DNA of 64,000 bases, taken from positions 20,633,395-20,697,394 of the forward strand of contig NC_049988.1 of NCBI RefSeq assembly GCF_000003815.2, written 5' to 3'. The translations under genes and the position numbers were made by a program. The notes under the pieces were generated by a model. It ran no database searches and was not told the origin of the DNA. It worked only from the letters and a program-made list of their open reading frames with translations. This document shows positions 936 to 56,862 of this stretch, in pieces. This DNA is from Branchiostoma floridae (Eukaryota > Chordata > Leptocardii > Amphioxiformes > Branchiostomatidae). The number at the start of each line of letters is the position of its first letter. Positions within the stretch are counted from its first letter, which is position 1.

Positions 936-3900
936 ATGGCATCTGATGAACAGGTTTGTACGTTAAGGATTAACATGAGTAACGTTAATAATATGGCCCC
1001 ATTCGGTCAGTATTGACCATGGTCATGGTATGGTAAAGTCCTAATAGATATCCGCCCTACAGCATCAGCTATGGTTAAACAATCCTATACCATAATGTCA
1101 GTCTCTGCCCCATCTGTAAGCTGACTCAGATCTGTTGAAGAGGTCTTTTCTTTTGAGTAACATTAATGATATGGCCCCTTCGGTCATTATTGACAATGGC
1201 CATGGTAAAGTCCTAATACATAATAGCCCTACAGCGTCAGCTATGGTTAAAAAGTCTTATACGGTAATGGCAGCCTCTGTCTCTGTCAGACTAGTGTCAA
1301 TGTGTAAATTGATTTATTACTGTTGCCTTACATTGTACCATGTACAAATGTCGTGCAATAATGTCCATTCATCATTCTGTAAGTTGAATCAGATCTGTTA
1401 CAGAGTTCTTTTGTTCTGAGTAACGTTATATTCTACGATAACATCAATGTGCAGTCAGTCAGTCAGTCCACGCGAAGGTGAAACTTCCCCACGTGTCGCT
1501 AGTCAACCCCTATGGTGGCCAAAGTCTCCTGTAAAAACATTCTCCCTATAGCCAGTGTACTAATGCTGGGAGCAAAAAGAATACCATAAAAGGCATCAAA
1601 ATACACAAAATGTCAAACTAAGATCCGAGGGCATGATTTGTGTATAGCTGTACATGTTGATTTTTCTCTTCTTAAAACATGCCAGGCCCCGGTTTGGAAA
1701 TGTGGCCTAGCCCTTAATCTGGTAGGGACTATTAGACATTGTTTCTTTATCTATCTTCCTTAGGAGTGACACTCTACCTACTGCGTTACTGTTATATAGC
1801 TTTCCTAAAAATGTATGTTGAGAAGTCAAAAGAATGGTTCTAAAGTCACTTGATGTTTTTTCGTCCACTGACAGACAGAACCCCCGCTGTATGACAAGTT
1901 CAGCGCTAAGACCTACTTGAAGAGTAATTACCGCGTGGGGCCTGACGGGGTACCTGACTCCCACGAGGACTGGCTGCCGTGGCTGCTCAACAACCTCAAG
2001 GACAACTTCGCGGGGGGTAAGACGCTCTGTCCGAAGTATACGCTACTTCACCTATATCCGCCGAGTAACCTATGTCCGTTGTTTTAAAAAACCGTGTATT
2101 TGAGGATATCGATAAGTCGAAGTACGGTGGTTTCAAAACCACTGAGTGTTACTTAAAACCCACGAATACTAGTACCCAATTTTTAAAGACAACAATTTTC
2201 AAAGACAACGGATATATGGTTACCCTGCGGATAGATTAGCATTACTAGTAGTTCTTAATATGGAAGATTTCAACTGTCTCAAACGCAAGAAAAACATATT
2301 GAAGTCTCTGTCTACCAATTCTCATGTAACGTTACATGTCTTCTTCAAGGCAACTAATGATTGTGTGTCAAAGTCAGCAGGTCAAAGTCGGATGGAAGTC
2401 GGTATCGTCCCCCCTCCTTGATGTTGATAGTATCACATGTTCGATTTCGAACACCTCCGTTCGAAATAGAACCATGATCGAATAGGGGCGTGGCTTCAAG
2501 ATCGGTCTATGGTCACAGCAATACAAAGCGTAAGACAGAACGGTTGAAAACTTTTTTTTGGAAACAGTCAAATATTAATGCGCGCGCGAAAATCATCCGT
2601 ACAATCAAATCAACATGGCTTAATACATTCTGACTGTTCTATACATTGCAGGTAAGCTGTCTGGTAAGCGGCTGTTGGATGTTGGGACCGGGCCTGCCAT
2701 CCACAATCTGATCTCTGCCGCCCGCTACTTTCCTAACATCACATGTGCGGAGTACTGTCAGGTTAGTAGCAAAGCTATCAAGCTAGTCTTCATAGCAAAT
2801 CCTACTACTGCTTTGATTATAATTTACAAAAGTGCCACATGCAAGGGACTACAGATATTAACAAAGTAATGACTTTGCTCACTTCACTCTTGAGCGTCGG
2901 CTTTAAGGAGATCCACATCTCGAGCACGATAAAGAACCTACCAGAATTATAGAAACAAATTATATGTTTTATCTTTGGTTTTGGCTCAACTTTCTCAGGA
3001 AAACAGGGAGGAAGTTGAGAAGTGGGTTCGCGGAGAGGAAGACGCGTTCGACTGGGCCCCTTTCATCAAATATGTGTGCGGACTGGAGGGGGACAGGTGA
3101 GTCTTCCTTAGCTGCTGGAGCTTTAATTTGCTGAATGGATAAATCGATGGATCTTAGATAAATGTATGTGGTATGTATCGCCGGAAGGCCGAAGGGCGAT
3201 CCGACCCGCGTGACGGCGGGGACTGAGACTGAATGCATTTTATTTATGTCGTACCCACCTGAGAAAACACATGTTTTGATGCGAAATGCGTCTAACGTTG
3301 AGAAAATGTAGTGCCCTTGAACACTGTTACAACAGCAATGATCCAACGTCCGAATGAGGTATTCGATCGAGCCGCACTCAGCGTGCACAGAGTATGTTCG
3401 AATTTTCGATGGATATGACACGCCACCTTGTTTCTGACTTTATCTGCAGAGACTGGGAGGCCCGGCAGGTGGCGCTGCGTAACGCCATCCAGCATGTAGT
3501 TTTCTGTGACGTCAGAGAAGAGAGACCGCTCGGGACGTTCGACGGCGGGCCGTATGACGTAGTCAGCAGCATGTTCCTTTTGAGTACAGTAGGGAAAGAC
3601 AGGTAGGTGAAAAACTATCGAATTCCCGGTAAATTGAACCTGTAAATACTGTACATAACATAGCGTCTGTCTTCTCTGTCACGATTAATAGCTTGATAGT
3701 AAGCTAAACTGGATCGATATTACTTTTACTTTCAACTTTCACTGGTATTTTCTCTTCAGGGCTGATTTCGACGAGATCTTGTCCAAGCTGTGTTCCCTCG
3801 TGAAGCCAGGCGGGACCCTGATCCTGGTCTGTGACCTGGAGGCGACTCGCTACACCGACGGGAGAGTCTCCTACCCGCTCATCACACTAGACGCGCCCTA

Positions 3901-4033
3901 TATCCGACAGGCTGTCAGGAACAGCGGATTCACGGATGTAGAGGACGATATTCTGTTCTTTAGGAGTACCGAGGGCATGAACTGGGACGGCACTAGTTAT
4001 ATCTACCTCACTGCACGCAAGTGCGCAGAGTAA
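936..4033 (+). CDS. NNMT/INMT/PNMT-family SAM-dependent N-methyltransferase, six exons
   Basis: Small-molecule N-methyltransferase of the nicotinamide/indolethylamine/phenylethanolamine group; it would transfer a methyl group from SAM to an amine, probably in the cytosol. Exons are 936-953, 1875-2016, 2652-2761, 2999-3096, 3450-3602 and 3760-4033. All junctions are GT-AG and in phase, giving 795 nt (264 aa), the usual family length. Visible family features: YDKFSAKTYLKSNY near residue 12, the SAM-binding motif LLDVGTGPAIHNLI at about 61-74, ITCAEYCQENREEVEKW at about 79-95, VKPGGTLILV at about 188-197, and the C-terminal block FTDVEDDILFF. The six-codon first exon (MASDEQ, donor GTTTGT) is the least certain part. 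The last exon is followed by repeated partial copies of itself. The substrate cannot be told from sequence. Confidence 0.85.
974..1440. repeat. Tandem duplication inside intron 1 of the NNMT-like gene
   Basis: A segment beginning GAGTAACGTTAATAATATGG near 975 recurs near 1154 (GAGTAACATTAATGATATGG) with an offset of about 178 bases. Both copies continue through the same CCTACAGC(A/G)TCAGCTATGG stretch. A third, short copy of the unit end lies at about 1380-1432. The 94-codon open frame over this region is an accident of the repeat. Confidence 0.6.
1525..1715. mobile_element. Dispersed repeat, relative of the element at 16691
   Basis: The stretch with ACACAAAATGTCAAACTAAG, GGGCATGATTTGTGTATA and CCGGTTTGGAAATGTG matches the right part of the element at 16691-16896. 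The left terminal repeat is missing or strongly diverged. It lies in intron 1 of the NNMT-like gene. Confidence 0.5.
2035..2250. mobile_element. MITE-like element, family with TTCACCTTTATCCG termini (copy 1)
   Basis: Diverged copy of a roughly 200-220 bp element whose ends are inverted repeats. The left end here is CTACTTCACCTATATCCG; the right end has GACAACGGATATATGGTTAC followed by GCATTACTAG. The best copy is at 7729-7950. It sits in intron 2 of the NNMT-like gene. Confidence 0.6.
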
Positions 4034-4210
4034 CATGCCGTTTTCGTGCTGTAGCTTATGTATATACAAGACGATACATGTACTTGCAGATACATGTACT
4101 TGCTTAGCAAGTGGAATATAATATTTTTTCAGGAAATGTTAATAGTCCTTTATGTGAAATTTGCAATGAGCTTGAATTCAGTGAACACATGTTTCTATAG
4201 AATGTACTAG

Positions 4211-5560
4211 ATTAAGAAACGCCTACACCGACGGGAGAGTCTCCTACCCTCTCATCACACTGGACGTGCCTTATGTCCGGCAGGCTGTCAGGAACAGCGG
4301 TTTTAAGGATGTGGAGGACAATATTCTGTTCTTTAGGAGTACCGAGGGCATGAAATGGGATGGATCTAGTTACATCTACCTCACTGCACGCAAGTCCGCA
4401 GATTAGCATGCCGTTTTCGTGCTGTAGTTTACAAATGTACAAGACGATACATGTGCTTGCAGATACATGTACTTGCTTAGCAAGTGGAATATAAGATTTT
4501 TTCTGGAATTGTTAACAGTCCTTTATGTGAAATTTGCAATGATCTTGAATACAGTGCACACATGTTTCTATAGAATGTACTAGATTAAGAAACGCCTACA
4601 CCGACGGGAGAGTCTCCTACCCTCTCATCACACTGGACGCACCTTATGTCCGGCAGGCTGTCAGGAACAGCGGTTTTCAGGATGTGCAGGACGATATTCT
4701 GTGCTTTAGGAGCACCGAGGGCATGAACTGGGACGGCACTAGTTATATCTACCTCACTGCACGCAAGTGCGCAGAGTAACATGCCGTTTTCTTGCTGTAG
4801 CTTATGTATATACAAGACGATACATGTACTTGCAGATACATGTACTTGCTTAGCAAGTGGAATATAACATTTTTTCTGGAAATGTTAACAGTCCTTTATG
4901 TGAGATTTGCAATGATCTTGAATACAGTGCACACATGTTTCTATAGAATGTACTAGATTAAGAAACGCCTACACCGACGGGAGAGTCTCCTACCCTCTCA
5001 TCACACTGGACGCGCCTCATATCCGGCAGGCTGTCAGGAACAGCGGATTCACGGATGTGCAGGACGATATTCTGTTCTTTAGGAGTACCGAGGGCATGAA
5101 CTGGGACGGCACTAGTTACATCTACCTCACAGCACGCAAGTCCGCAGATTAGCATGCCGTTTTCATGCTGTTAGTTTACAAATATACAAATATAAATGTA
5201 CTACAGATACATGTACTTGCTTAGCAAGTGGAATATAAAATGTTTTTCTGGAAATGTTTAGAGTCCTTTATGTGAAATTTGCAATGAGCTTGAATTCAGT
5301 GAACACATGTTTCTATAGAATGTACTAGATTAAGAAACGCCTACACCGACGGGAGAGTCTCCTATCCTCTCATCACACTGGACGCGCCCTATATCCGGCA
5401 GGCTGTCAGGAACAGCGGATTCACAGATGTGGAGGACGATATTCTGTTCTTTAGGAGCACCGAGAGCATGAACTGGGACGGCACTAGTTACATCTACCTT
5501 GCTGCACGCAAGTCCACAGAGTAACATGGTGTTTTCATGCTGTAGTTTATAAATATACAA
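4211..5560 (+). repeat. 373-bp tandem array: four extra partial copies of the NNMT-like last exon
   Basis: The segment starting TACACCGACGGGAGAGTCTC at 3851 in the real last exon recurs at 4224, 4597, 4970 and 5342, a period of 373, 373, 373 and 372. Each copy holds the last ~60 codons, the stop and the 3' flank. All four copies are open in the coding frame to a stop at the original position; changes seen include F to C (copy 3), Y to H (copy 4) and G to S (copy 5). Copies 1 and 3 end GCAGAGTAA while 2 and 4 end GCAGATTAG, suggesting a dimeric step in the expansion. The copies lack the VKPGG strand, so none encodes an enzyme alone. They are pseudo-exon copies, or possible alternative 3' exons. 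Confidence 0.85.
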
Positions 5561-5596
5561 GACGATACATGTACTTGCAGATACATGTTATACATA

Positions 5597-5665
5597 CTAG
5601 ATATATCTACTTTACAGCACGCAAGTCCTCAGAGTAACATACCGTTTTCATGCTGTAGTTTATAA
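5597..5665 (+). repeat. Truncated last copy of the 373-bp unit
   Basis: ATCTACTTTACAGCACGCAA followed by GTCCTCAGAGTAACAT repeats the end of the NNMT-like coding segment and its stop, then the TTTTCATGCTGTAGTTTATA flank. The front of the unit is missing. This marks the right end of the array. Confidence 0.65.
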
Positions 5666-6984: not shown

Positions 6985-7700
6985 ATTCAGGTGAAGAAAT
7001 GAAGCTATCTTTTGTTGCTTTAAAAAGGGTTTGATAAGCTACAGACCAAGTCATCGCACGTATACGAAGTCATAATTTTAGAAAGCATGTAACATTACTG
7101 ATGTTAACGCCTGAGTACATATAAAACGACCGATATCTGACCTCTGGGAATTCTTCTAAATTTAGTTCGCACCATGGCGAAACGTAGCCTCCATAGCAGG
7201 CTCTCTATGGAGGTTAAGTGAAGCGATGGTGCGAATTAAATTTAGAAGAATTCCCAGAGGTCAGATATCGGTCGTTAAATATGTACTCAGGCGTTAACAT
7301 CAGTAATGNNNNNNNNNNNNNNNNNNNNNNNNNNNNNNNNNNNNNNNNNNNNNNNNNNNNNNNNNNNNNNNNNNNNNNNNNNNNNNNNNNNNNNNNNNNN
7401 NNNNNNNNCATAGAGAGCCTGCTATGGAGGCTAGGCGAAACGCTTGAAAGTTACTAAAATCTTGTTCTCGGTGAAGTGTGCCGATTCCAACTGAAGTTAT
7501 GAAGCTTTCTTCTGTTGCTGTAAACATATGCATGGTTTGAAAAGCTACATGTACATACCAAGTCATTGCACGTATACGAAGTTATGATATTAGAAAGCAT
7601 GTAACGTTACTGATGTTACCTTCTGATAACATAGAAAACGACCAGACTACCTTGCCCCGGGGAATTCTTCTGGTGGTTTCTACAATGGCGATTCGCTCGA
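6985..7700. repeat. Direct duplication flanking an inverted repeat and a gap
   Basis: The segment at about 6990-7190 (CGCACGTATACGAAGT, AGAAAGCATGTAAC, ACTGATGTTA) recurs at about 7495-7700 with moderate divergence. Within the first copy, 7092-7190 and 7207-7308 form a near-perfect inverted repeat of about 100 bases per arm around GGCTCTCTATGG. The right arm ends directly at the N run at 7309. Confidence 0.7.
7309..7408. other. Assembly gap, 100 N
   Basis: A run of exactly 100 N, probably of arbitrary size. It follows the right arm of a ~100-bp inverted repeat, and the bases after it (CATAGAGAGCCTGCTATGGA) repeat the hairpin loop sequence. The gap is therefore likely caused by the palindrome. 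Confidence 0.95.
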
Positions 7701-12660: not shown

Positions 12661-14727
12661 ATGTCGGTGGAGAAAAAGACAACCCCCGAGATCTTCGACC
12701 CCAGGTCGACCCCAGAAATGACGGCAAAGTACTACGACAACTGGTCTGGTCATTATGAAGAGGTGCGTTGATGGATGAAAATTGACACCCTAGAAACTAG
12801 ACACAAACAAAGGGACAAGCAAATAAACGATTTGTGGGGGATTTGGGCAATTTCACCATAGATACATTCTGACATCGCAGCTTTTCGACAGTGTCAATAT
12901 TATAATGATGTTAGGAGTTAATCTCCAAGCCGATGTTAGACTGGACCATTTTCTGATCACACGGATTTTCTGACAGCTGCCAACCCCATTGCACATGCAC
13001 ACATCAACCCGTGAGTAAGCTTATTGTCTCTCCCACAGGAGATCATGACGCAACTAAAATGCACAGCTCCCCGGGTCTGCGCAGGCGCTGTAGGGAAAGC
13101 CCTGGGAGGGTTGGACCGCGGGAAGGTCAAGATTCTTGACGTGGGGGCCGGGACCGGGCTGTGCGGGGAAGAGGTGAGAAATAAGGCCATGTTGTATCCC
13201 AGATGTGCGTTTATCCTAGAAGCGCTTCTGCGATATCCAGAACACGTCGCAAGCGAAGGAGTGCGTTCTGGATATCCGGAACTGGACTGTGCGGGAAAGA
13301 GGTGAGAAATATAAGGTCATGTTCTATCCCACGTGTGCTTTCATCCCAGAAGGAGTGCTTTCTGGATATCCGGGAACGGGCTGTGCGGGGAAGAGGTGAG
13401 AAATAAGGCCATGTTAGATCTCAGATGTGCTTGGGATATCCAGAACACTTTGCAAGGGAAGGAGTGCGTTCTGGATATCCAGAATGCACTATGATTTAGA
13501 GCGTTTCTGGGATGAAGCGCATCTGGGATAAATTAGGCCATGTTCATTTGAATATACGGATGAAATCCGTGTGCGCTTCAATTTTCGTCCGTTTCCAAAA
13601 GTTTTCAGCCATACTGTAAATCATACTAAACAGGTGCGAAATGTGGAAATTCGTGCCGAAGATGTCAAAACAAAAATATCGTAAAACAATGACAATACAT
13701 ACTCAAGGCTAAATAAAGGTTGAAAAAATGACATAAAATGCCAACGTCAATTCCAAAAGTCAAATAAGAAGAAGGTGTGAAAGAAAAAAAAGAAGAATCT
13801 ATTGTTCGATATACCATATTCTGAGTGTTCAGTCATTTCTTCAACCTTCCTAACCACCTGATTGATTAATTGGTTGTTTGGCTGCTTAGTTAATGATTGA
13901 TTATTCCTCAGTTGGAGTCCCTTTAATGATTTATTTATTCCTTAGTTGGTGCAGTTGGGCTTCACCGACATAGACGGAGTGGACGGGAGTCAGGACATGC
14001 TGAACCTGGCCGAGAGGAAGCAGATCTACAAACGACTTATCTGCGACTTTGTCGGGCCGAACCGTCTGGATATCGAAAACGGTAACTCCGAGTGTTTAAA
14101 CCTAGCTGGCGTTTCGACATTTTCTTCCAATCCCTATTTACTGTTGAAGTCTTGCTAAGTAAGTATTTACTTAAACTATTTCTATTTCTGAAACCCCAAC
14201 AAAAACGCATAAACACATGCCAAAACAGCCTGAGCCGAACCTCTGCTTGGAGAGTACCCATAGTGCATATCGCTGTGCATTCGCAGTTGACACCGTGAAC
14301 ACCGCTTATTGAGATGACCTTTGCCCTCTACAGACACCTATGACGCCATCGCTTGCTGTTCTTCCTTCGCCCCGGGTCACCTGAAGGAGGACTGCCTACC
14401 CGAGCTCATCCGAGTCGTCAAACCAGGTCAGCAGAAGGTTCAGACTTTAACACGCTGTACTCAACTAGCCTGGTATCCAGCCGTAATATAGCTCCCAAGT
14501 CTCTTCTCTCCTCTCAATTGTGGAGATGAGAGAAGAGACTCGGGAGCTTTATTACGGCTGGATACCAGGCTAGAGTTCAACGTGGTTTAGATAGGATAAA
14601 AAAGAAAAAAAAGTCACATGTAGACATTCATGCACCCACTCACTAATACGCACGCACACGCACACAAGCAGGCACACGCACTCATGTATGTAAATGATAG
14701 CCTGTAATAGCCCCCGTCTCGCCCCGG

Positions 14728-14763
<36 letters not shown>

Positions 14764-15091
14764 GGTACACATAGAGTGAAGGACTACAACGACTCAACTG
14801 GAGCCACTAGCCACATGCACACACACATACACAGACACACTAACACATACTAAAGTCCTTATGTCGTCTATAACATATCCTATAACATCCACCGTCTCGC
14901 CCACAGGTGGCTATATCATCATCACGTTCCGTGAGGAGTACCTGTACATAGTGGAGGATTACAATGGCAAGCTGGAACCCGCCATGGCCCGTCTGCAGGA
15001 CGACGGGCTCTGGGAACGAGTCAGCCGGGAAGTCTTCCCCAAGTTCTACGAAGACAAAAACGGGATCACCTTCGTCTACAAGGTCTTGTAG
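12661..15091 (+). CDS. METTL27: METTL27 (WBSCR27)-like class I SAM methyltransferase, five exons
   Basis: A small class I methyltransferase resembling the protein encoded in the human Williams-Beuren region. Exons are 12661-12762, 13039-13173, 13946-14081, 14334-14426 and 14907-15091. All junctions are GT-AG and in phase, giving 651 nt (216 aa), close to but shorter than the human protein. Landmarks: YYDNWSGHYEE at 24-34 (the family's YD-W-xx-YE entry), SAM motif I ILDVGAGTG at 66-74, the acidic post-I loop GVDGSQDML at about 90-98, YDAIACCSS, and VKPGGYIIIT at 153-162. The frame starts MSVEKKTTPEIFDP at the first ATG of the exon. The substrate is unknown. Intron 2 begins with two further copies of the exon 2 donor edge, and intron 4 carries a hairpin element. 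Confidence 0.85.
13150..13500 (+). repeat. Tandem copies of the METTL27-like exon 2 donor edge
   Basis: The end of exon 2 (GGGCTGTGCGGGGAAGAG then GTGAGAAATA) recurs twice inside intron 2. Intact GAG|GTGAGAAAT donors lie at 13174 (real), 13302 and 13396, each followed by AAGG(C/T)CATGTT. GTTCTGGATATCC(G/A)GAA also repeats between them. If the later donors were used, the product would gain intron-derived codons. Confidence 0.75.
14180..14256. mobile_element. Fragment of the CTCCAAGCAGAGGTT foldback family
   Basis: AACAAAAACGCATAAACACATGC leads into CAGCCTGAGCCGAACCTCTG and CTTGGAGAG, matching the right arm of the element at 6644-6820. It lies in intron 3 of the METTL27-like gene. Confidence 0.5.
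14465..14573. mobile_element. Short perfect-ended hairpin element in intron 4
   Basis: CTAGCCTGGTATCCAGCCGT at the left and ACGGCTGGATACCAGGCTAG at the right are exact reverse complements. Pairing continues through AATA(T)AGCTCC and CTTCTCTC to a short loop near AATTGTG. About 50 bases pair per arm, so this is MITE-like with no coding capacity. Confidence 0.75.
14730..14762. repeat. (TA)n microsatellite
   Basis: Alternating TA for about 30 bases inside intron 4 of the METTL27-like gene. Confidence 0.9.
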
Positions 15092-15126
15092 TGGGCGACA
15101 TTTCAGCTCAGATGTGCCTTGCTGAA

Positions 15127-15132
15127 AATAAA
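15127..15132 (+). terminator. Polyadenylation signal AATAAA of the METTL27-like gene
   Basis: AATAAA lies 36 bases after the TAG stop at 15089-15091. It is the canonical poly(A) hexamer at a plausible distance for a very short 3'UTR. Confidence 0.65.
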
Positions 15133-15377
15133 AGTTCAAGGATTTGAAAGCATTTTCTAGTCGTTTTGTTTCTTATTTCAACGATATTTTTTTATGTTGC
15201 TTTTTGCACTGCACTCAAGTTAATAACTTATATCAACAGTGCCACATACACAGTCCTGACAGAAGGTAAAGGTAGACTTTTTTCTTTTACCTCCCCAGCC
15301 GAAGTCATGTACCCATATTTACACCTGGGTGAAGTGAGGAAGGTCGTGTAAAATGCCTTTCCCAAGGGCACAACTTA

Positions 15378-15588
15378 TGTTACCTTTTATACGCGGGGTA
15401 ACCTTTATCCGTTGCTTTGGAAAACAGTATATTATGGATATCCTGTCATCGGACGGTGAATCTGCAACATTTTGAAAATACTGCTCTCAAAAACCACCGT
15501 CCGTTTTGATATCCCTAAATACATTTTTTTTTAAACAATGGATAAAGGTTACCCTGCGGACAAAGGTGAACTGACATTAGACTACATG
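15378..15588. mobile_element. MITE-like element, TTCACCTTTATCCG family (copy 3)
   Basis: GGGTAACCTTTATCCGTTG at the left and AATGGATAAAGGTTACCCTG then AAAGGTGAAC at the right are the diverged inverted ends of the family. The interior again carries CGGACGGTGAA and ACCGTCCG arms. It lies between the METTL27-like and PBLD genes. Confidence 0.65.
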
Positions 15589-16130
15589 TCTGATTCTGAA
15601 TCAATAACGATGTTTGTCCGGCGTTCTGCAATGAGGACCTAGCGCTCGTATCAATGGTGTACAACCGGTGTAACCACGCACCATATGGCGAAACACACCA
15701 GCTTCGCAGGCAAGCAGCGGCGACAAGTTTGTGTGCATCGAATGACCTGTACATGTCTTACCTAAACCCTTAATTTTCGCCAAGCTTAGCTTCGCTTGAC
15801 CTAGCTTGGCTTAGTTTACTTTAGTTTAGCTTAACTTAGTTAAGTTTAAATTAGATTATTTTATTTACCGAGAGAAGAACAAATCTAACTGGAAGCGATG
15901 TTTTAAAATGAAATACCTCTACCGTATTCATTGATTAGAACATTGCTGTCACACTATGAACATCCAGTTAATCATTTTCTAAAAAGATCACAATTTTCCT
16001 TTGTGACAGTTGCTGAACAAAACTTAATAAAGAGTCCTGGAATCATGTCAAGAATCCATCCCAAAAGATGATACCAACTTGCTTTACTAAGTCCTATTGT
16101 TTAAATCGTAGATAAAAAGTTGAACCAGAC

Positions 16131-19100
16131 ATGAGTGAAAATTGCAAGACATCATACAACGGTGACGTCACCGAGACAGCCTGCAACGGCGACGTCACCA
16201 AGACAGCATGTAACGACGACGTCACCAAGACATCAAGCAACGGTTACGTCACCAAGACAGCATGCAACGGCGACGTCACCAAGACACCAATCAACGGTTA
16301 CGTCACGAAGTCAGCATGCAATGGTGACGCCACGAAGACATCGTGCAAAGGCTACGTCACCAACGGTGAGGTCAGCGATGACGTCACGAATACGTCATGC
16401 AACGGTGACGTCAATTATGACGTCACGAAGACGTCATACAACGGTGATGTCAACAGTAACGTGGTTGATCCGGAGGAAAGGTGGCTGCCGATCTTCCAAG
16501 TGGACGCGTTCACGGACCGACCGTTTTCCGGCAACCCTGCAGCAGTCTGTCTGGTAGAGGATGGGGTGAGTGGTTTGTCACAGATTCAATGAATTCTTTT
16601 CATTTTGCTCTCACTTTGCCTAAAGGGACAGATGAATTATGTCGTTTTTTGTATTTGTGACGCCCGCAATCTGGCAAAGCAGTACGAGTAAGGCTTAGGT
16701 CACATTTATAAAACCGGGCCCGGCCGGGCAGCTTTCTGGAGCGAAAAGATTTATGTGAAGGACATCAACATACACAAAATGTCAAAATAAGATTCATGGG
16801 CATGATTTGTGTATATCTTTAGGTATACATTTTAACTTTTCGTTTCTTTAAACATCCCGGCCGGGCCAAAGTTTGGAAATGTGATCTAAGCCTAAGGGGT
16901 GTAGTTTGATCATCTCTGACTACCAAGTTTGAATGTAGAGTCCACAGTGCCGAAAGCATTGCCAGGACCGTTGGACGTCTAAAAACTTCGCAGCTGATCG
17001 TTCAATGACTTCCAAGCTCTTTCTATGGTCTCCAAAGCCTGGAGGTCGTCTCAAACCCTCCATGATATCGATGTCCTTGTGTAAATGTGCTTGTCTTCAA
17101 CAGGACCTGAACGATGATGTCCAACAGAAGATCGCGGCTGAGATGAACCTGTCAGAAACAGCCTACATCCGCAAACTGAGCAGTAACGACGACTTTTCTA
17201 CAGGTAAACTTGTACCGCCTTCTTTCTGCAAATTTTCCTCACATTTTCGTAAAATGTCTTTTGGCTTGTACGTCGATGAAAGTTAGATATCCAGAAGCCG
17301 AATAGCAGTTATTCAATCGACTAGATGAGGTTTTAGAGACGGTCTGACTTTTCAGATAACATCCACTACATCAAGTCAGTGCCACTGTGGCTCAATGTTA
17401 TGTTTTCGAAATTACTCTCACTCACTCACTCACTCACTCACTCACTCACTCACTCACTCACTCACTCACTCACTCACTCACTCACTCACTCACTCACTCA
17501 CCACAAAATTACTACATCAAGTGCGTTTTCAAAGATAACCTTGTACGTTGCCGTTGTGTTCAGGTTCCAGGTTCGGACTGAGGTGGTTTACTCCCACCAA
17601 GGAGATCGACTTGTGTGGCCACGCCACCCTCGCCTCTGCTGCTGCTCTCTTCTATATCATGGGTAAGTAGTGGTCAATATCGTTGTTAATATTGTTGAAG
17701 AGGTTCATCAGTCACGTATGCAAACAGTTACAACAATTTTCATCAATCAATGACTGTTTTTTGTAAAGGTACAGTACATACCTCCCAAATTTTCGATGTC
17801 TACCAGTACATCATCGTCAGGGGAATGACCTAGTCTCAGTTCTCAGTTCGCAATGCACATAGAAAGATTATGGAGGCCATCCACATTCAACTAGAGGCTG
17901 CGAAGTTGAACCGGACTGAGGATTGGGAGTTGCCCAAGTGCTACCTACCCCTTCTCCGCAAGGGAGGCGGGGGGAGGGGGCAGATGATCCACGCAAGCCT
18001 GACCTAGTCTCGTGTTCTCTCGCGAGAACTGAGACTAGGTTATTCCTCTGACGATGATGTACTGGTAGACATCGAAAATTTGGGAGGTATGTACTGTACC
18101 TTTACAAAAAAACAGCCATTGATTGATGAAAATTGTTGTAACTGTTGTTAATATTGAAGTTTTTACCTGTCATTCAACACAACAAATTGCTCACCTCAAA
18201 TTTTCAGTCGCACAGGATTCACGGGATTTGAACTGGCCTGTCCCAGTTATCCACTAACTTAAGTTAACTTAACATAGAGACTGATACCAGTTGAAGCACA
18301 GGGACATCGATATTCCTAGATTGCCAAAAATGAGTATGGTTGGTTACACCATAGCTTATCATGTGTATTCAATCTATCTAATCTATTCATCTATTTTTCT
18401 TTCCATTCCCAGACAACCCCAGCCCTCAGCTCACGTTCCTGACCAGGAGCGGGGAGCTGTTTGCTAAGCGGCAGGGAGACTACATTTCCCTGGACCTGCC
18501 GGAAAACGTCCCTGAGCCACAGGTGGGACATTTGTACATTTGCAACATATATGCAAGGCTTTGCATGATGTAAAAAAATGACCAATAAACTGGTGGACAT
18601 ACCGACAGTGTAATATAACCAGCTATTGCCGCGCCGCTTGACTGTTATCGAAAAGCGATTATAACGGCTCTACAGATACAGGAACAGATTCCCACCCCCG
18701 CAAGGCATTAGCTCCTGTACTCAAACAACAGAAGCTAATTGACTCAATCTAATCAGCCTTATCTTGTATTTGTCTAACTTTGATTCCATTTGGACTATAT
18801 AAAATGTATCTTCACCTCCTTTGTACATCAATTCATACTTGGAGTATAAAATCTGCTCTTCAATAGATCTGCTCAGTGTCACTGACGAAAGGTAGTGAAT
18901 GCTACTTGTAACGTCTGACTGTTTCCGAAATCATGTCCAGTTGCTTGATCGAGTAATTACTATTTGGTGTACCTTATTACTTGAAACTTAATCTTTGTCG
19001 ACTTACATGCATTCTGTTTTCCGCCTTAGCCAATGAAATAGATAAAAAAGGTTGCTTCGTCGTTTTTTGTGTGTGTGCACTATTCTGGCAGCAATGATGT

Positions 19101-22030
19101 AACCCTTAATGCCTTGGATGTGCTTCCTTTGTAGAATGTGTGTTTGTTTTCTCCTCCAGGACAGGGAAGCTTATAGTCGGCTGCTGCGGGTAAATACAGA
19201 GACCTTCAAGTCCTCTCACTTAAATCCAGAACAATCGTTTGTATTTCTAACTTATATAAGTTTTACGTTGCTCCAAGCGGTGAAATGTAAGTGTATTTTA
19301 TCATTTTCTTTCAAATCAACGACTGAGTGCCTACGTTGTCTCGTGGTATTTCATGCGATGTCCAGTCATTGACATGTTTCTTTTATTGCCTTTCTTGTTG
19401 TACAACGCAGGCTATTGTAGGCACGACCCCTGTCCAGGAGGTTCGGTACTGCAGCTCAGTGGGAGGGGACCTACTGGTGAGACTGGCAGACGACACCACA
19501 AGGTTACCATGGTTACAGTCACAGATTTTTCTTCAGTTTCAAAAGGCCGTGTTGATCCAATTACATGGATAACATCCGTGTGTGCTTTAAATTCCTTCCG
19601 TTTAGTAAAAACGTTTGAATATACTCTAAATCGCACAAATCATCGACAGAACAAACAAATGTATGCCGTAGGTTGCAAAATGGAAATATCGGAAAACTAA
19701 TGGCTTCATCACTAACATTGAACTGTATGATTCATGGAAACAAATAAAGGAATTAAAAACATTGAACTGTATTGACATGCAAATGATGGGTGTTAGATGT
19801 TGCCACATTTTAAATGTTGCAAATGTACTAAACGTATCTTCTTTCACGTCATGAACAGGAGTACGTTGGAGAGCCTCAGTCCTGACGTAGGCGCCATGAT
19901 GGCGGCTCATACTGAGGGCAAACTCAGAGGAGTGGCTGTCACGGTTAAAGGTAACGCCATATTAGCGAAACTACGTATACATGCAGCTATACATACATAC
20001 ATACATACATACATACATACATACATACATACATACATACATAAATTTTATCTGAAGGGGATGGCCCTCGTCGGCCTCAGCCGCTCTTCTTAAAGAAAAG
20101 ATATTAAATTGGAAACCAACATTTATATCACATTCTGTAGCTAATTCATCAGTTGGCCGGACAAGAAGAGTAAACTTTTTGCAACCGGACTATCACACAA
20201 TTCTGAGTTTGTGAGCTGAGCCACCATATCATACTTCTACATACAAACATGTAACTCTAGTTCATCTTCATCCAAGGGGTAGTATTTCCGTTCTGTGTAT
20301 TACAAAACGGGGTATTTTGGGGTATCAAGTCAAGTATTGCAGTTTGAAACCACCGCCATCGACTTCATATTCCTAAACACCCCGTTTTTTTCTTAAATTA
20401 CAAAACGGGTATAGGCTATTAACCAGCGGATAAAGGTGAACTAGCTTTAATATACTCAAATGTAAGTTCATCAACCTTTACTCAGCCGAGACGGGGGCCG
20501 ATACTGACTTCCAAGCACCTTTGACCCTTTGCTTACGCCACACTTCCTGTCTGGATGTGTGACATAGGCTTTGGGTCATTTCAACTTGAAAAAGATCACA
20601 GGACTGATCGAAAGCTTGTTGGTAAGCATTGTTTTTGTGGTAAGGTATAAAGTTTATGATTGTATCATGATTATTTTTAGCCTTATTACCATTACATATG
20701 TATGTATTACATTTTATCTCTAGGAAGCCCTTCCAACGGCTGTGTAAACGACAATGGGGTGAAGTACGACTTCATCTCCCGGTTCTTCTCTCCGTGGTAC
20801 GGGGTAGCTGAGGATCCTGTCTGCGGGTCTGCTCACACCGTGCTGGCCAGCTACTGGGCAAAGGAGCTGGGCAAGACTGACTTCTACGGTGAGACATAGT
20901 AAGGCCTAGGGGAAAACTGTTGTGTGAGCTCGGTAAGACTGACTTCAACGGTGAGACATAGTCAGGTCTAGGGGAAACTGTTGTGTGAGCTCGGCAAGAC
21001 AGACTTCTACGGTGAGACATAGTCAGGTCTAGGGGAAACTGTTGTGTGAGCTCGGCAAGACAGACTTAGAACTACGGTGAGACATAGTGTGGCATAGGGA
21101 AAAATGTTGTGTGAGCTCGGCAAGACCAACTTCTACGGTGAGACATAGTACGGCATAGGAAAAAGTGTTGTGTTTCCGGTTACGGTCCTAGAAAAATAGG
21201 GCCGGTCGCTAGCAATAATGTTGAATCCGTACAGGACAACTGTGACTGGTTCTTTGGGTATCATGGTGATCATGTTATTTTTACTATTATAGTTCAACTA
21301 CCAAAGCCAAGGACGTGCACATATGTGTAACTGTTTATGGTATGGATTTGGCTGTCTTGTCAATAAGATATTGTTTATCTAAATGTCTAAAATTCATAAA
21401 CGTGCCATCAATGGTGGTTTGTTTTAAAATGTGACAAAATTGGATTATTTTCTTTTGATTACTTGTTCTTGGTTTGCAGTCCGTCAGTGCTCGCCGAGAG
21501 GTGATTTGAAGGTGTGACTATGAGAAGAGCGTTTTTATTGATTTGTTTGTCCGTCAGTACTTACTCAGAGGAGGTGATGTGAAGGTGCGTCTGAGAGAAG
21601 AGGTGTTCATCTTTATTTATTTTTTTGTTTGTTTGTTTGTTTACAGTCCGCCAGTGCTCACCCAGAGGTGGTGACTTGAAGGTTCGGCTGAGAGGAGACG
21701 GGATTGTTTTTATTTATTTATTTGTTTGTTTGTTTACAGTCCACCAGTGCTCGCCCAGAGGAGGCGACTTGAAGGTTCGGCTGAGAGGAGACGGGATTGT
21801 TTTTATTTATTTGTTTGTTTGTTTACAGTCCACTACTTCTCACCAAGAGGAGGCGACTTGAAGGTGCGACTGAGAGGAGACGGGATTGTTTTTATTTATT
21901 TGTTTGTTTGTTTACAGTCCGCCAGTGCTCGCCCAGAGGAGGCGACTTGAAGGTTTGGCTGAGAGGAGACGGGAGGGTGGAGGTGGCAGGGAAGGCTACG
22001 GTCGTCTTAAATGGCAAGATCAAGATTTGA
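16131..22030 (+). CDS. PBLD: PBLD/MAWBP-like PhzF-family isomerase with repetitive N-terminal extension, nine exons
   Basis: Phenazine-biosynthesis-like domain protein of the PhzF superfamily, a likely isomerase-type fold whose physiological substrate is unknown in animals. Exons are 16131-16565, 17104-17203, 17564-17662, 18413-18522, 19160-19189 (a 30-nt microexon), 19411-19502, 19859-19950, 20724-20888 and 21918-22030. All phases agree, giving 1236 nt (411 aa). The PBLD body starts near residue 119 ([20 protein letters not shown]). NLSETAYI at 160-167 carries the Glu (E163) equivalent to the PhzF catalytic acid. [16 protein letters not shown] (196-203), [12 protein letters not shown] (346-357) and the C-terminal [15 protein letters not shown] follow in family order. 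Residues 1 to about 110 are an added NGDVTKTAC-type repeat, absent from the human protein as I know it. The edges of exons 8 and 9 are tandemly repeated in the last intron. Confidence 0.88.
16155..16455 (+). repeat. 27-bp coding minisatellite with CRE-like TGACGTCA sites in PBLD exon 1
   Basis: About ten degenerate 27-bp units encode variants of N-G-D-V-T-K-T-A-C. The unit core is (T/C)GACGTCACCAAGAC. Exact CRE palindromes TGACGTCA lie at 16163, 16379, 16406 and 16418, with several one-mismatch relatives between them. The frame stays open throughout. In protein terms this is a polar, Thr/Asn/Asp-rich, probably disordered tail. Confidence 0.85.
16691..16896. mobile_element. TIR element with CTTAGGTCACATTT ends in PBLD intron 1
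   Basis: AGGCTTAGGTCACATTTATA at the left pairs with AAATGTGATCTAAGCCT at the right, and CCCGGCCGGGC pairs with CCCGGCCGGGCC further in. The interior has CATGATTTGTGTATA. A partial relative lies at 1525-1715. No transposase is present. Confidence 0.7.
17416..17502. repeat. (TCAC)n microsatellite in PBLD intron 2
   Basis: Uninterrupted CTCA/TCAC tetranucleotides for about 85 bases. It lies about 60 bases before the exon 3 acceptor, so length changes could affect that splice site. Its open frames (Leu-Thr-His-Ser) are not genes. Confidence 0.95.
17723..18146. mobile_element. Large TIR foldback element in PBLD intron 3
   Basis: The left arm (AACAGTTACAACAATTTTCA through GTACAGTACATACCTCCC and GTAGACATCG's complement) pairs with the right arm ending AATTGTTGTAACTGTTGTT. 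Each arm is over 100 bases and nearly perfect, extending to GACCTAGTCTC / GAGACTAGGT near the centre. A diverged relative lies at about 31125-31425. Arms this similar suggest a young insertion. Confidence 0.8.
19990..20043. repeat. (CATA)n microsatellite in PBLD intron 7
   Basis: About 13 perfect CATA tetramers. Confidence 0.95.
20255..20456. mobile_element. MITE-like element, TTCACCTTTATCCG family (copy 4)
   Basis: CTCTAGTTCATCTTCATCC at the left and GCGGATAAAGGTGAACTAGC at the right are the family ends, with mismatches in the left arm. It lies in PBLD intron 7. Confidence 0.65.
20486..20632. mobile_element. Dispersed repeat with AGCCGAGACGGGGGC
   Basis: AGCCGAGACGGGGGCCGATA, then CACCTTTGACCCTTTGCTTA and AAGCTTGTTGGTAAG, recurs at about 44282-44425 with the same order of blocks. 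A fragment (AGAGACGGGGGTCG) lies near 45146. The family is unidentified. Confidence 0.6.
20864..21173 (+). repeat. Five tandem copies of the PBLD exon 8 donor edge (~61 bp)
   Basis: GAGCT(G/C)GGCAAGAC(T/A)GACTTC followed by TACGGTGAGACATAGT recurs at 20864 (real exon), 20926, 20987, 21048 and 21113. Every copy keeps the ACG|GTGAGA donor. The copies extend the intron start; the real exon end is the first donor, because an in-frame stop (TAG in GACATAG) follows it. Confidence 0.85.
21480..21917 (+). repeat. Tandem copies of the PBLD exon 9 acceptor edge (~90 bp), five upstream of the real one
   Basis: Copies of TCCGCCAGTGCTCGCCCAGA and the following GGCGACTTGAAGGT begin at 21480, 21550, 21647, 21740 and 21829, before the true last exon at 21918. 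All but the one at 21550 are preceded by a pyrimidine-rich tract ending TT(A/G)CAG. Copies at 21647, 21740 and 21829 reach GAGACGGGATT and then enter the (TTTG)n tract, so they lack the conserved C-terminus; only the 21918 copy has [13 protein letters not shown]. The 21480 copy hits a stop after about 12 codons. Confidence 0.85.
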
Positions 22031-55035: not shown

Positions 55036-55853
55036 ACCAGGTAAACAAGATGAGGTACATTACATGTTAGATATAGTTTCCTTCAAAAGTAAGGGAAGGG
55101 AAATGTGTTTGTTTTTTTTTGAAGATTGATCATAATCATGTAAGGTACATTACATGTAAGACAAGTGTGTTTTCGTTAACCTGAGACAACAGGTAATGTA
55201 CATTACAGGTAAGACAGGTGTATTTTCTTCAAAGATTGACCACAAGACACCAGGTAATGTACATTATAGGTAAGACAAATGTGTTTTCTTTGAAGATTAA
55301 CCATAAGGCACCAGGTAAGGTACATTACGAGTAAGACAGGTGTGTTTCATTTTAAGATTGACCATAAGACACAAGGTAAGGAACTTTTCAGGTAACACAG
55401 GTGTTTCATTTTTAAAATTGACCATAAAAATGTACATATCTTGTAAGACAGGTGTGTTTCATTTGAAAATTGACCATAAGGCACCAGGTAAGGTACATTA
55501 CAGGTAAGACAGGTGTGTTTCATTTGAAAATTGACCATAAGGCACCAGGTAAGGTACATTACAGATAAGACAGGTGTGTTTTATTTGAAGATTAACCATA
55601 AGGCACCAGGTAAGGTACATTACAGGTAAGACAGGTGTGTTTTATTTGAAGATTAACCATAAGGCACCAGGTAAGGTACATTACAGGTAAGACAGGTGTG
55701 TTTTATTTGAAGATTAACCATAAGGCACCAGGTAAGGTACATTACAGGTAAGACAGGTGTGTTTTATTTGAAGATTAACCATAAGGCACCAGGTAAGGTA
55801 CATTACAGGTAAGATTAGGTATGTTTAATTTGAAGATTGACCAGAAGGCACCA
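55036..55853 (+). repeat. 61-bp minisatellite, left arm
   Basis: About 13 units of the type ACCAGGTAAGGTACATTACA + GGTAAGACAGGTGTGTTTTA + TTTGAAGATTAACCATAAGGC. The central units (about 55487-55792) are almost identical and exactly 61 bases apart; the left units are more diverged. Each unit holds CAG|GTAAGA, a consensus splice donor. The short frames across it (for example 55347-55559) are repeat artefacts. Confidence 0.9.
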
Positions 55854-55869
55854 GGTTATGTACTTTCCT

Positions 55870-56862
55870 GTACATTGTACTGTACCTCATTTGGTCATAC
55901 CTCTTCTGTAGGCAAAGAAAATATACCTGTCTTGCCCCTAATGTGCCTCATATGGTTTTACCTGGCCTGTAGTCAAAGAAAGCACACATGTAGTACCTCT
56001 AATGTACCTCATCTGGTCATACCTAGTAATTTGTAAAGAAAATACATCTGTCTTACCTGTAATGTACCTCACCTGATCATACCTGGTCATTATTCAAAGA
56101 CAACACACCTGCCTTATCTGTAATCTACTTCATCTGGTCTTACTTGGTCTGTTGTCAAAGAAAACACACCTGTCTTGCCTGTAATGTACCTCATCTGGTC
56201 ATACCTGGTCACTATTCAAAGAAAACACACCTGTATCACCTGTAATGTACCTCATCTGGTCATACCTGGTCTGTTGTCAAAGAAAACACACCTGTCTCAC
56301 CTGTAATGTACCTCATCTGGTCATACCTAGTCACTATTCAAAGAAAACACACCTGTCTTACCTGTAATGTAACTCATCTGGTCATACCTAGTCACTATTC
56401 AAAGAAAACACACCTGTCTTACCTGTAATGTACCTCATCTGGTCATACCTAGTCACTATTCAAAGAAAACACACCTGTCTTACCTGTAATGTAACTCATC
56501 TGGTCATACCTAGTCACTATTCAAAGAAAACACACCTGTCTTACCTGTAATGTACCTCATCTGGTCATACCTGGTCATAAGTCAAAGAAAACACACCTGT
56601 CTTACCTGTAATGTAACTCATCTGGTCATACCTGGCCTGTAGTCAAAGAAAGCACACCTGTCTTACCAGTAATGAACCTCATCTGGTCATACCTGGCCTG
56701 TAGTCAAAGAAAACACACCTGTCTTATCTGTTATGTACCTCATCTGGTCTTACCTGGTCATTATTCAAAGAAAACACACATGTCTTTCCTGTAATGTACC
56801 TCATCTGGTTTTACCTGGTCATAAGTCAAAGACAACACACCTGTCTTACCTTCAAAGTACTA
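55870..56862 (-). repeat. 61-bp minisatellite, right arm in opposite orientation
   Basis: About 16 units of ACCTGTAATGTACCTCATCT + GGTCATACCTGGTCACTATT + CAAAGAAAACACACCTGTCTT, which is the reverse complement of the left-arm unit with changes in the TTTGAA/ACCATA part. The spacing is about 61 bases. Sub-variants alternate (TCACTATTCAAAG versus CTGTAGTCAAAG). The switch in direction falls at about 55855-55885. Confidence 0.9.

Follow-up and report, generated by a model that had tools for sequence, protein, structure and literature searches.

Are exon edges in lancelet DNA amplified by a dedicated mutational process, are multiple splice sites used, or do tandem arrays merely come to lie over exon edges and stay there? 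This question is raised by a window of 64,000 nucleotides of the Branchiostoma floridae genome (513.4 Mb, 431 contigs), positions 20633395-20697394 of contig NC_049988.1 (C10 hereafter), for which an earlier note made from the sequence alone had described four tandem arrays, each including an exon edge, in several neighbouring genes. Three of these arrays cover a splice border, one in a METTL27-like methyltransferase gene and two in a PBLD-like gene of the PhzC-PhzF family. These three arrays belong to a phenomenon already known in lancelets as "mirages", to which we add new member genes and a comparison of paralogues.

The METTL27-like gene (12661..15091, plus strand) has five modelled exons (12661-12762, 13039-13173, 13946-14081, 14334-14426 and 14907-15091), which when joined are translated without internal stop into 216 amino acids and end with the stop codon TAG. 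Its label is taken from the first reading of the sequence, while the domain evidence consists of a match of the protein to the Pfam family Methyltransf_25 (E=5e-12). The exon 2 donor occurs in three tandem copies (13140..13433, plus strand), for which Tandem Repeats Finder (TRF) reports a unit of 94 bp; GT is found at 13174, 13302 and 13396, and every one of the three donors reads GAG|GTGAGAAAT. The PBLD-like gene (16131..22029, plus strand) is modelled for exons 1-4, 8 and 9 (16131-16565, 17104-17203, 17564-17662, 18413-18522, exon 8 up to 20888 and exon 9 from 21918), and its exons 1-4 match Pfam PhzC-PhzF with E=5e-34. Here the exon 8 donor is present in five copies of a 61-bp TRF unit (20864..21173, plus strand), all with intact GT (20889, 20951, 21012, 21077 and 21138), and the exon 9 acceptor in six copies of a unit of about 89 bp (TRF 89; 21472..21975, plus strand), with TTTA/TTTG repeats on the intron side and exon starts at 21480, 21550, 21647, 21740, 21829 and 21918. 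An AG precedes five of these six starts and is missing at 21550. The copy numbers given in the earlier note are confirmed in all three arrays, as is its statement that most copies retain GT or AG (3/3, 5/5 and 5/6). Since the two PBLD arrays form the two sides of one intron (intron 8) of one gene, the "several neighbouring genes" come down to two.

As repeats, the window arrays exceed chance, with TRF scores of 258-2912. In the three splice arrays, alignments of the copies run through the GT or AG border, that is, the unit spans the exon-intron border as placed by the gene models, and the 94-, 61- and 89-bp units are unlike in sequence, in agreement with the difference that had been noted before. 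Copies in the window arrays are mostly 86-98% identical to their reference copy, with a single 17-base piece at 100%. By eye, acceptor-side units tend to adjoin intronic microsatellites, which are a possible source of breakpoints (TTTG/TTTA at 21620-21974, ATTG at the METTL27-like locus L005, CA at L002 with L121); donor-side units in the window are seemingly without bordering microsatellites, and at L013, a donor case among the globins, ATGA-like repeats are present. The intronic segment 13192-13281, which separates METTL27-like donor copies, matches a repeat that is present at several sites elsewhere in the genome (on C5, C7, C9 and C165).

The comparison of exon edges with introns, which had been named as the check able to overturn an edge-amplifying process, was run on a sample of four families (globins, sulfotransferases, P450s and the PBLD paralogues on C3) with flanks, in which 109 stretches were merged to 96, comprising 241,974 bases and 287 edges. 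These edges are the ends of domain matches, hence approximate splice positions, and represent part of the matches of the four families. For the sulfotransferases, 75 exons were entered from 150 rows listed among 173 matches and 73 were used, giving 146 edges; for the P450s, 54 of 118 matches were entered and 105 edges were left after ends at profile positions of at least 440 had been dropped. Whole-domain matches were excluded, as were acceptor ends at profile positions of at most 6 (except for globins), the window loci L048, L051 and L058, and the METTL27-like loci L001-L008. With the standard tolerance of 8 bases for an edge to lie inside a local direct duplication, 4 of the 287 edges are duplicated (globin 2/18, sulfotransferase 2/146, P450 0/105, PBLD on C3 0/18), against 2.8% of 181,872 non-coding and 0.75% of 26,157 coding-interior positions. 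With wider tolerances of 15 and 25 bases the counts rise to 5/287 and 6/287 edges, the corresponding shares of non-coding positions being 3.1% and 3.4%. When the edges were slid within their stretches, the mean number of duplicated edges was 7.5 and 949 of 1,000 shifts gave at least the four observed; under three other parameter sets the shifts averaged 9.6, 9.2 and 5.9, while the observed count stayed the same. Two of the four sample matches are globin cases already in print, and the other two lie at putative borders of sulfotransferase genes (C11 and C8), the one on C8 looking intronic by eye. The window itself gives the same picture: among 28 edges placed by eye from the sequence (a set that leaves the six edges of PBLD exons 5-7 outside), three lie within duplications at the standard tolerance, compared to 10.9% of all window positions (one-sided binomial P=0.60). 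As the counts are at or under their null expectation in both sample and window, exon edges appear to be duplicated about as often as the background or less often, and we reject the proposed special process that amplifies exon edges.

Several points weigh against this conclusion. Window edges are duplicated more often than those of the sample (3/28 vs 4/287, P=0.017), a difference that we attribute to the array-rich window (10.9% of positions compared to 2.5-2.8% of non-coding sample positions) rather than to targeting of edges. The sample edges, being ends of domain matches from only four families, are putative splice sites. In the METTL27-like family outside the window gene, 6 of 24 edge-lineages are affected vs 4/287 in the sample (Fisher P=2e-5); this contrast is overstated, because the counts are non-independent and the case of exon 5 looks shared by descent. 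Some edges may nevertheless be hot, and some gene families hotter than others. Finally, as a point against the reading proposed below, the choice of splice site in it is a prediction.

Mirages were encountered by our literature search in two papers only, and what follows draws on the available parts of their text. Amphioxus globin genes carry minisatellite-like duplications of exon-intron borders, named mirages, and earlier cases in Adh3 and other loci are cited there; their copy number varies between haplotypes, splicing is regular and in globins supported by reverse transcription PCR (RT-PCR), and the globin and Adh3 mirages are said not to disturb it (PMC3087553). Mirages were likewise described in PGBD5, with mention of TnC, where splicing is reported to be undisturbed and re-examined sequence data support the repeats (PMC3902484). 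The splice arrays of the window resemble those of Adh3 in that tandem minisatellite units lie over an exon-intron border and many copies carry splice signals; length is unstable in Adh3 and, here, between METTL27-like paralogues on C8, and splicing is reported as regular for Adh3 (PMC3087553). The arrays described here differ in genes and units, in occupying both borders of PBLD intron 8, and in that the METTL27-like paralogues reach about 21 donor copies. Both acceptor and donor duplications are also found in the globin genes BflGb6 (unit of 150-160 bp) and BflGb9 (157 bp) (PMC3087553), and arrays of fitting unit length occur at globin exon borders in the assembly analysed here: a 158-bp array of 4.2 copies running into an exon start (L017) fits BflGb6 by its unit length, and a 157-bp duplication over an exon end (L013) fits BflGb9. 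In contrast, the splice-border units in the window are shorter, at 61-94 bp, and their host genes encode a methyltransferase and a PhzF-like protein. The 60- and 108-bp repeats of PGBD5 are imperfect tandem repeats over 5' and 3' splice sites as well, the repeat number of which differs between assemblies (2 or 7, 3 or 6) (PMC3902484); unlike these, use of an extra copy in the three splice arrays of the window would lead to a premature stop.

We consider it probable, with good though not full confidence, that the arrays are ordinary minisatellites in which the initial duplication by chance took in an exon border, with near-neutral birth and fast turnover. A short tandem duplication would arise at any place in the genome, one of its breaks sometimes falling in an intronic microsatellite. 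Where it straddles an exon border it would be close to neutral, because it leaves the copy beside the exon body intact, with the remainder becoming intron. This step requires the spliceosome to choose the first donor and the last acceptor, a choice to be expected if the splicing machinery recognises each exon as a unit (exon definition). The array would then quickly gain and lose units by slippage or unequal exchange, selection retaining only the exon-proximal copy. If it is indeed the site adjoining the exon body that is spliced, the arrays would be tolerated, and tolerance of multiple splice sites, one of the two possibilities raised initially, is supported by the persistence of extra sites beside intact exons together with the published reports, as far as their available text goes, that mirages leave splicing undisturbed (PMC3087553, PMC3902484).

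The strongest competitor holds that certain exon edges are true mutational hotspots, at which sequence or chromatin at the splice border repeatedly seeds tandem duplication, such that the same edge is amplified across a gene family. The METTL27-like family, with two genes on C10, four close copies on C8 and one gene on C6, speaks for it. Its exon 2 donor is multi-copy in three of four gene lineages (three copies in the window gene, C10a; two in the second C10 gene, C10b; about 7-21 on C8 by TRF; one on C6), with spacings of 94, 192 and 55 bp. In addition, C8 has a duplicated exon 3 acceptor, beside an ATTG repeat, and all four lineages carry a repeated exon 5 acceptor region. In the window gene the latter is a degenerate relic that the earlier note had missed (14697..14805, plus strand): local alignments place its copies at 14697-14733 and 14769-14805, with the AG lost and a TA repeat inside, and the score of the exonic part was reached by 2 of 500 shuffles, shuffling being applied to that part only. 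The exon 5 copies, however, have the same borders across the paralogues on C10, C8 and C6, including a common CA-repeat border, which suggests one old duplication retained through gene duplication; the exon 2 copies of C10b and C8 begin at nearly the same exonic place and may likewise share an origin; and the four sampled families show no excess at edges. We regard hotspots as rather unlikely, though as the likeliest of the alternatives.

Considerably less probable is use of the extra sites, an option raised in the earlier note, in which case alternative donors, acceptors or last exons would regulate or diversify the product. The retention of GT in 3/3 and 5/5 copies and of AG in 5/6 would be in line with use. 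In order to assess usability, exons were joined for each alternative site and stops were sought. An open frame results from 13174 only among the METTL27-like donors (1/3), from the first PBLD exon 8 donor only (20889; 1/5) and from the last exon 9 acceptor only (21918; 1/6), so that the productive site in each array is the one touching the exon body, and all 11 non-proximal sites (2+4+5) lead to a premature stop. On this ground we reject the idea that the extra sites of the three splice arrays give a working product, and the reports on globin and Adh3 mirages, in the available text of PMC3087553, likewise describe undisturbed splicing. Judged from the reading frames, use of extra splice sites is unlikely.

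The fourth array, in the last exon of an NNMT-like gene, bears on the same alternative. The gene is backed by three NNMT_PNMT_TEMT matches within C10:20635976-20637358, and the array (3850..5663, plus strand; TRF 3850-5588, 4.7 copies, plus a fragment) comprises coding end and 3' untranslated region (UTR). Its 373-bp repeat is real, as had been described; examination of the unit for the mirage feature of a spanned exon-intron border revealed no such border inside it, the unit consisting of the last 61 codons (stop included) and about 190 bp of 3' UTR, and the array lies outside 12661..22030, the part of the window with the two other genes. A 60-codon frame is intact in all five copies, and copies 2-5 carry 19 non-synonymous, 15 synonymous and no stop changes against 23.1, 9.8 and 1.1 expected (P=0.03), a pattern that could be taken as a sign of use. 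It can also be explained by a recent origin of the copies or by their exchange with the real exon, and copies 1-4 are about as similar in the UTR (91-96% identity) as in the coding part (90-93%). This signal is too weak for a claim of use, and alternative last exons are a weak possibility.

The four C8 genes of the METTL27-like family allow the same donor array to be followed between near-identical copies. From the upstream flank through exon 2, a stretch of about 1,977 bp, they are 99.50-99.85% identical, and their donor arrays measure 390 bp (L003), 1,112 bp (L004), 338 bp (L005) and 834 bp (L006), corresponding to 8.2, 21.2, 7.2 and 16.2 TRF unit copies. The length instability characteristic of mirages is visible between these paralogues. 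Downstream of the array, L003, L005 and L006 are 98.1-99.7% identical to one another, and L004 is 94.8-96.7% identical to them over about 400 bp. A core length of 29 nucleotides is found in the exon-proximal copy of 4/4 genes and in 25 of 46 other copies, where copies were found by pattern and the genes are close copies rather than four independent cases; exon 2 of L005 contains a stop that falls outside the repeat. Among the PBLD paralogues on C3, exon 8 is single in 4/4 loci and exon 9 is single in the three of four loci where it was found. It is conceivable, though we would give it little chance, that such arrays act as length-variable decoys, up to about 20 near-identical donors competing with the true one and copy number tuning the productive mRNA per gene copy; if so, they would constitute a heritable rheostat mutating much faster than the gene itself. 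Irrespective of this, the family provides a natural series of one and the same donor in 1, 2, 3, about 7, 8, 16 and 21 copies, useful for asking how the spliceosome picks among near-identical sites and whether decayed mirages can be a source of new introns, a proposal found in the available text of PMC3087553. The window also extends the list of lancelet genes with mirages and provides, with the four-family survey, limited-sample evidence against an edge-targeting process.

That the arrays are assembly artefacts, with repeated or haplotype copies wrongly joined, is the least probable reading by our estimate: there is a 100-N run close by (7309-7408) and the C8 genes (two minus, two plus) and C3 PBLD genes (a plus and a minus set) could be mis-joined haplotypes, but the window copies mostly differ from their reference copy, the exon 5 arrangement recurs on C10 (two genes), C6 and C8, and in the available text the PGBD5 repeats are backed by re-examined sequence data (PMC3902484) and globin splicing by RT-PCR (PMC3087553).

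At the C8 METTL27-like loci L003-L006 (1.67-3.35 Mb) and the C3 PBLD loci (L049/L050 and L052/L053), nearly identical genes face opposite ways, with 99.3% and 99.9% identity for the two pairs on C3 that were compared; they represent either inverted segmental duplications or mis-joined haplotypes. The run of N at 7309-7408 is an assembly gap or a withheld stretch, and its flanks look by eye like a local inverted repeat. Also missed previously was a coding minisatellite in PBLD exon 1 (16145..16454, plus strand), identified by TRF and translation, the 27-bp unit of which is in frame and encodes a threonine- and asparagine-rich N-terminal repeat. Further along the window, at 55190-56851, two adjacent 61-bp arrays of 11.2 and 16.0 copies, apparently inverted to each other, contain CAGGTAAG-like motifs.
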